Made by a program: the position numbers and the translations under genes. A stretch of 64,000 nucleotides of DNA from Candidatus Saccharimonadota bacterium (GTDB lineage: Bacteria; Patescibacteriota; Saccharimonadia; Saccharimonadales; Saccharimonadaceae). Under the pieces are notes generated by a model that was given only the letters and a program-made list of their open reading frames with translations, was not told where the DNA came from and ran no database searches. Location of the stretch: NCBI GenBank assembly GCA_946893605.1, contig OX335598.1:434001-498000 (forward strand), read 5' to 3'. Below are positions 8,407-8,552 of this stretch, piece by piece (positions within the stretch are counted from its first letter, which is position 1; every line of letters starts with the position of its first letter).

Positions 8407-8497
8407 GAGCTGCTACGCGCCCACCCGGGGCATATTTGAATATGTGTTTGTCTTTCAATTGGCAAGCATAGGAGAATGCCCCTATGCGTACCAGCTC
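8407..8497 (-). ncRNA. Candidate structured RNA with pseudoknot
   Basis: The gap between ligA and the murF-like gene folds strongly on the minus strand. GAGCTGGTACGC pairs with GCGTAGCAGCTC (12 bp with one G-G mismatch). An inner hairpin ATAGG/CCTAT has GGGGCAT reaching from stem and loop, complementary to a downstream ATGCCCC (7 bp), giving an H-type pseudoknot. A further TTGAA/TTCAA pairing lies between. Upstream, TTGTGT-N17-CATAAT ends 7 nt before the first paired base, so it may be its own transcript. It does not match SRP RNA, 6S, RNase P or tmRNA as I know them. Identity unknown. Confidence 0.5.
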
Positions 8498-8552
8498 ATG
8501 TTTAATTATGCATTATCGCCCAAAAAAACACAAGCTTTATATCTCACTGCGA

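Follow-up and report, generated by a model that had tools for sequence, protein, structure and literature searches.

A 91-nt element on the minus strand of the window (the whole 64,000-nucleotide stretch of DNA that was analysed) belongs to a new RNA family that extends across the order Saccharimonadales (Saccharibacteria, TM7). The best explanation of the evidence as a whole, to which we assign a probability of roughly 80%, is that comparative sequence analysis has uncovered a free-standing, order-wide structured RNA gene whose product would act in trans. What is new is the family; the kind of molecule, a free-standing structured small RNA, is already known. The sequence-only reading had proposed a new structured RNA with an H-type pseudoknot. 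The RNA stands, as a broader family than was proposed, and the pseudoknot holds in the window's own family but not order-wide.

Saccharimonadales is an order of ultrasmall epibionts, and the bacterium that carries the element is described as a tiny parasitic mouth bacterium. Its genome (G000) is a single, complete-looking contig of 0.70 Mb. The ligA gene of the window is 96% identical to ligA of TM7 oral taxon 352, and the source organism is an oral Saccharibacterium. The RNA element lies at 8497-8407 between ligA and a murF-like gene, and covariance-model and sequence searches found it as a single copy in this genome. Two frame changes interrupt the murF-like gene (8380-7092, minus strand) in the window's genome, whereas its reading frame is unbroken in the nearest relative (L032/L003); the split reflects either gene decay or assembly errors. 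The features of the locus are, in the order of the minus strand:

10607-8553, minus strand: ligA, on the 5' side of the RNA element
8528..8533, minus strand: -35-like element TTGTGT, read from the sequence, position kept in relatives
8505..8510, minus strand: -10-like element CATAAT, 7 nt before P1
8407..8497, minus strand: structured RNA core, 91 nt, full-length match to covariance models R1 and R2
8486..8497, minus strand: 5' strand of the P1 outer stem, GAGCTGGTACGC, with a purine-purine mismatch at position 7
8481..8485, minus strand: 5' strand of S1 (the pseudoknot helix), ATAGG, its last two G common to S2
8476..8482, minus strand: 5' strand of S2, GGGGCAT, from S2 covariation
8468..8472, minus strand: 3' strand of S1, CCTAT, from a permutation test in the window's family
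8434..8465, minus strand: long A-rich loop with a GACAAACAC segment, from alignment and motif count
8427..8433, minus strand: 3' strand of S2, ATGCCCC, from S2 covariation
8419..8426, minus strand: invariant 8-nt bulge GGGUGGGC, core GGUGGGC, in 89/89 aligned copies
8407..8418, minus strand: 3' strand of the P1 outer stem, GCGTAGCAGCTC, with covariation across the order

The stem, hairpin, crossing pairing and promoter described from the letters of the window were all found on the minus strand at 8407-8497 and just upstream. P1 pairs GAGCTGGTACGC (8497-8486) with GCGTAGCAGCTC (8418-8407) and contains a single G.G mismatch. The S1 hairpin can be extended to GCATAGG/CCTATGC, and S2 (GGGGCAT/ATGCCCC) crosses it. 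Both inner pairings are therefore present, but as originally written they share G8482-G8481, so the two helices cannot form in full at the same time in this copy. The promoter sequence, TTGTGT and CATAAT separated by 17 nt and ending 7 nt before the stem, was confirmed, and its position is conserved in relatives. The window copy scored 82.3 bits and 71.9 bits with models R1 and R2, respectively. Its folding z-score relative to shuffled sequence was -3.0 on the minus strand; the plus strand gave -4.8, a value that can occur with a palindromic layout. This folding score, together with homologues that carry compensatory changes throughout the order, indicates that the element is not a product of chance.

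A DNA search of 151 relatives recovered clear homologues that share a nearly invariant segment, ATGCCCCGGGTGGGCGCGTAGCAGC, and more than 40 distinct copies of the RNA were listed among them. We built one covariance model from 13 sequences (R1, comprising P1 and S2) and a wider model from 61 sequences (R2), and ran both on whole genomes. R2 matched 253 of 325 Saccharimonadales genomes from many families of the order, including 213 of the 252 genomes of good quality, and every genome among the matches listed carries one copy. Among 380 Patescibacteria genomes drawn evenly there were 30 matches, all from Saccharimonadales; the other approximately 348 Patescibacteria genomes, which included sampled other families of the same class, had no match to R2, a model that may miss divergent relatives outside the order. 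No match was found in viral contigs (searched with exact patterns of the window-family sequence) or in plasmids, and with one copy per genome we rejected a mobile or repeated element.

A covariation check of the homologous regions had been suggested from the window alone, and it revealed abundant compensatory changes in P1 and S2. Among 61 copies, 17 of 17 modelled P1 and S2 pairs change on both sides and 93% of cells are paired, although these counts, like all pair counts for the two helices, rest on model-fitted alignments and hence lean towards the model. No shuffle of this alignment reached any covariation measure. The 11 pairs of P1 all show both-side changes across the order, as do 6/6 pairs of S2 in a set of 33 diverse copies, where the covariation score was 0.63 compared to 0.18 for shuffled alignments. 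Paired cells amounted to 90-93% for P1 and S2 versus 20-55% in slid controls. An alignment-free permutation test of S2 on the same 33 copies gave a z of 9.1, with 0/500 permutations reaching the native value, and a set of 28 copies mostly from the window's family gave a z of 4.6 (0/400). S2 is wholly rewritten between families: GGGGCAT/ATGCCCC in the window becomes AGCGGCG/CGCCGCT in L171, GGCTCTTT/AAAGAGCC in L209, GGCCTTAAA/TTTAAGGCC in L210 and GGGTTCA/TGAACCC in L218. Within a comparative analysis, this rewriting is the decisive evidence for the predicted S2 pairing. Read on the minus strand, paired positions hold 46 G-U/U-G combinations versus 11 A-C/C-A, an excess that supports the minus strand as the RNA strand.

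The unpaired parts of the element are also conserved. The GGUGGGC bulge occurs in 89/89 aligned copies, those from other families of the order included, and an ACAAA or AUAAA-type motif occurs in the A-rich loop of 89/89, both counts covering the copies accepted by the covariance model. An alternative local hairpin (CACCC/GGGUG) at the 3' strand of S2 was considered and is not general, as the exact complement is present in about one third of the 33 copies. The predicted ancestral core of the RNA is thus P1, S2, the invariant GGUGGGC bulge and the A-rich loop.

S1 forms between the linker that joins P1 to S2 and the part of the loop that directly follows the 5' strand of S2. In the window's family, Saccharimonadaceae, S1 had a z of 7.4 with 0/1000 permutations reaching it, a z that is inflated by the relatedness of the copies, and in many cases its pairs have been exchanged altogether (CATA/TATG, CAAA/TTTG, AACA/TGTT). 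In L148 (TATTAG/CTAATA before GGGCGG) and in L136, L144 and L149, S1 and S2 hardly overlap, so a true H-type pseudoknot would be possible in these copies. S1 found no support in 18 copies from other families (z 0.9; 206/1000 permutations reach it). Two interleaved covarying helices, S2 (z 4.6, in the set drawn mostly from this family) and S1 (z 7.4), are therefore found within Saccharimonadaceae, and the pair is not kept across the whole RNA family. On this comparative evidence, the predicted H-type pseudoknot is a family-level elaboration in the window's family and not a property of the RNA family as a whole.

The sequences around the core have the organization of an independent gene. A -35/-10 pair that fits a start at P1 was found in 76% of 89 copies compared to 15% of shuffled flanks, with the -10 mostly 5-8 nt before P1. 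An intrinsic terminator occurs within approximately 70 nt after P1 in 63% of these copies versus 0.4% of shuffled flanks, and in many copies it is clear of the core and the -10 of the next gene comes after it. A generic promoter scan did not list the site in the window because its -35 is weak; the conserved position in relatives is evidence for it. No terminator is evident in the window copy or in the window's genus, where the murF-like gene follows directly with its own -10. Read-through into murF is therefore possible in this genus, and the 3' end of the RNA in the window copy is uncertain. The gene downstream of the RNA varies between genomes (tRNA-Ala, murF-like, TypA-like GTPase and others) and in some cases has the opposite orientation. 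ligA is close to the RNA in many loci and the murF-like gene in some, and the ligA/murF position is incidental. By sequence comparison, the family thus combines its own promoter and terminator with variable neighbours. The element had been read as either a small RNA or a cis-element between DNA ligase and a wall ligase; because the downstream gene varies and a terminator often intervenes, it is very probably a free-standing small RNA gene, and the cis-element did not survive the comparison.

We considered whether the neighbouring genes point to a different explanation. A leader of the downstream gene, such as a riboswitch or attenuator acting in cis on murF here and on tRNA-Ala or other genes elsewhere, would account for an RNA that immediately precedes the murF-like gene with no evident terminator in the window's genus and that ends approximately 30 nt before an ORF in L169. 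The compact pseudoknot also recalls riboswitches: in the window's family the element shares two interleaved helices and an A-rich loop with the SAM-II and preQ1 H-type pseudoknot riboswitches. It differs from them in an additional 12-bp closing stem, a pseudoknot helix that is not order-wide, and the lack of a conserved downstream gene or an Rfam match. A downstream gene that is not conserved and sometimes lies on the opposite strand, together with the many copies in which a terminator lying outside the core precedes the next gene's -10, makes a cis-acting leader improbable. The second neighbour of interest is tRNA-Ala(GGC). Of 40 sampled loci of the window's family, 17 have this gene at most 500 nt downstream and in the same orientation as the RNA, and of 24 loci from other families, 18 have a tRNA-Ala gene no more than 2 kb away. 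This gene is a persistent neighbour order-wide (L204-L223, L113-L152), often with a terminator and then a -10 in between, and the link may be old synteny. T-box and RNase P RNA pair with the 3' end of tRNA, and GGUGGG in the bulge could do likewise with UCCACC, being complementary to positions 70-75 in all 10 sampled tRNA-Ala. The GGGUGG of the element, which we take to resemble part of the T-box sequence, is an unpaired conserved segment beside helices with a tRNA gene nearby, as in the T-box leader and RNase P L15. However, other tRNAs offer the same match (tRNA-Val and tRNA-Ser equally, Leu and Glu nearly so), and we rejected this generic complementarity as specific evidence for pairing with the tRNA-Ala 3' end. 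The acceptor stem would also have to open, and the window's genus retains the RNA with no tRNA-Ala neighbour. The T-box model (RF00230) has no match at E<=10, and in place of the T-box layout of stem I with specifier and antiterminator the element is a standalone gene with a terminator. A tRNA-interacting RNA, possibly tied to tRNA-Ala(GGC), is therefore as improbable as a cis-acting leader. An unlikely, if less remote, alternative is that the RNA is the cognate partner of a divergently encoded RRM protein in a two-part RNP system. The A-rich loop is the kind of short single-stranded RNA to which RRM domains bind. A gene for a glycine-rich RRM protein, mostly single copy, is present in 70 of 91 genomes of the family (L113-L152, e.g. 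L140 5369-5711). In 19 of 40 sampled loci it is found upstream of the RNA and divergent from it, at a distance of at most 1.2 kb, and match positions suggest this arrangement in many more genomes. The gene is nevertheless absent from the window's genome, from the members of the window's genus tested and from sister species that keep the RNA, and no RRM signature was found within 2 kb in the 24 loci of other families. An RRM protein is thus ruled out as an obligate partner, and because the RNA persists in the window's genus with neither the RRM gene nor an adjoining tRNA-Ala, neither neighbour is obligatory.

We also compared the element with known RNAs. The Rfam 15 scan of the window region at E<=10 returned no family at the element and only a chance rivX fragment outside it, so the check that could have exposed an existing family left the proposed novelty intact. 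A scan of 17 homologous loci at E<=0.5 returned tRNAs only. In the literature collection searched, no paper joins Saccharibacteria with a pseudoknot or Nanosynbacter with an sRNA, and the TM7x transcriptome paper does not mention small RNA. Another structured RNA of TM7/Saccharibacteria, lysM-TM7 RNA (RF03005), has a copy in the same window (31960-31821, minus strand, 119 bits). It differs in being an Rfam cis-regulatory element of 138 positions at a separate locus, and it has no match at the element described here. A single-copy, near-universal RNA with its own promoter and terminator could in principle be a diverged SRP RNA, 6S RNA or tmRNA that Rfam does not recognise. Bacterial SRP RNA (4.5S RNA) is likewise a single-copy hairpin of approximately 100 nt, and no SRP RNA was otherwise detectable above noise in six Saccharimonadales genomes (G000, G004, G008, G023, G031 and G120). 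But the SRP RNA model (RF00169) does not match the element, which has no GGAA domain IV with a GNRA-type loop and no 6S-type central bubble. The Ffh M domain (PF02978) was found in 0/6 of the same genomes and in 14/14 controls. SRP subunits have been remarked to be absent in many CPR bacteria (PMC8080830), and SRP seems to have been lost here. With no Ffh M domain in 6/6 genomes, a substitute SRP RNA is excluded in practice. tmRNA (RF00023) is encoded elsewhere, at G000:C1:62640-63039, and 6S RNA (RF00013) has no covariance-model match in the genome or at the element; we rejected both identities. A diverged housekeeping RNA of these classes is accordingly very improbable. We give equally little credence to a self-cleaving or otherwise catalytic RNA: the conserved unpaired core and pseudoknot would be compatible with one, but known ribozyme families have no match (Rfam, E<=10 and gathering scans), and a transcript that apparently begins at P1 and stops shortly beyond it leaves little to cleave.

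The reading we prefer is therefore an RNA that works apart from its locus. Action in trans is quite probable, given that different genes follow the RNA in different genomes and that terminators stand between the RNA and these genes. Transcription would begin at P1 from a sigma-70-like promoter of the gene's own and, in many lineages, would end at the intrinsic terminator. The RNA is predicted to fold as a long hairpin, P1 followed by S2. This fold would expose the A-rich loop, which carries CAAAACAAA-like segments, and the 8-nt bulge GGGUGGGC, which is invariant. Copies from Saccharimonadaceae would add S1, formed by the P1-S2 linker and the loop, and the resulting H-type pseudoknot could allow docking of the A-rich strand on S1. 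We infer that the conserved unpaired bases may form the binding surface for a partner in trans. The likeliest partner would be a protein, in a ribonucleoprotein with a housekeeping role, and the alternative is a target RNA. Protein binding as the main mode of the RNA is a suggestion we put at just short of even odds.

Saccharimonadales genomes of 0.6-1.2 Mb have discarded most biosynthesis, and nearly all of them, from dozens of families, retain a single copy of this RNA. Such near-universal retention in reduced genomes suggests a core function. The family is ready for addition to Rfam straight away, and the RNA is realistically accessible to deletion, pull-down and probing, as some Saccharibacteria can be co-cultured with hosts. 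Our most tentative proposal is that it is a lineage-specific, essential housekeeping RNA, either an RNP core or a ribosome- or tRNA-associated RNA, with a function outside all known RNA classes. If this proposal is true, the RNA would be an invention made at the root of Saccharimonadales.
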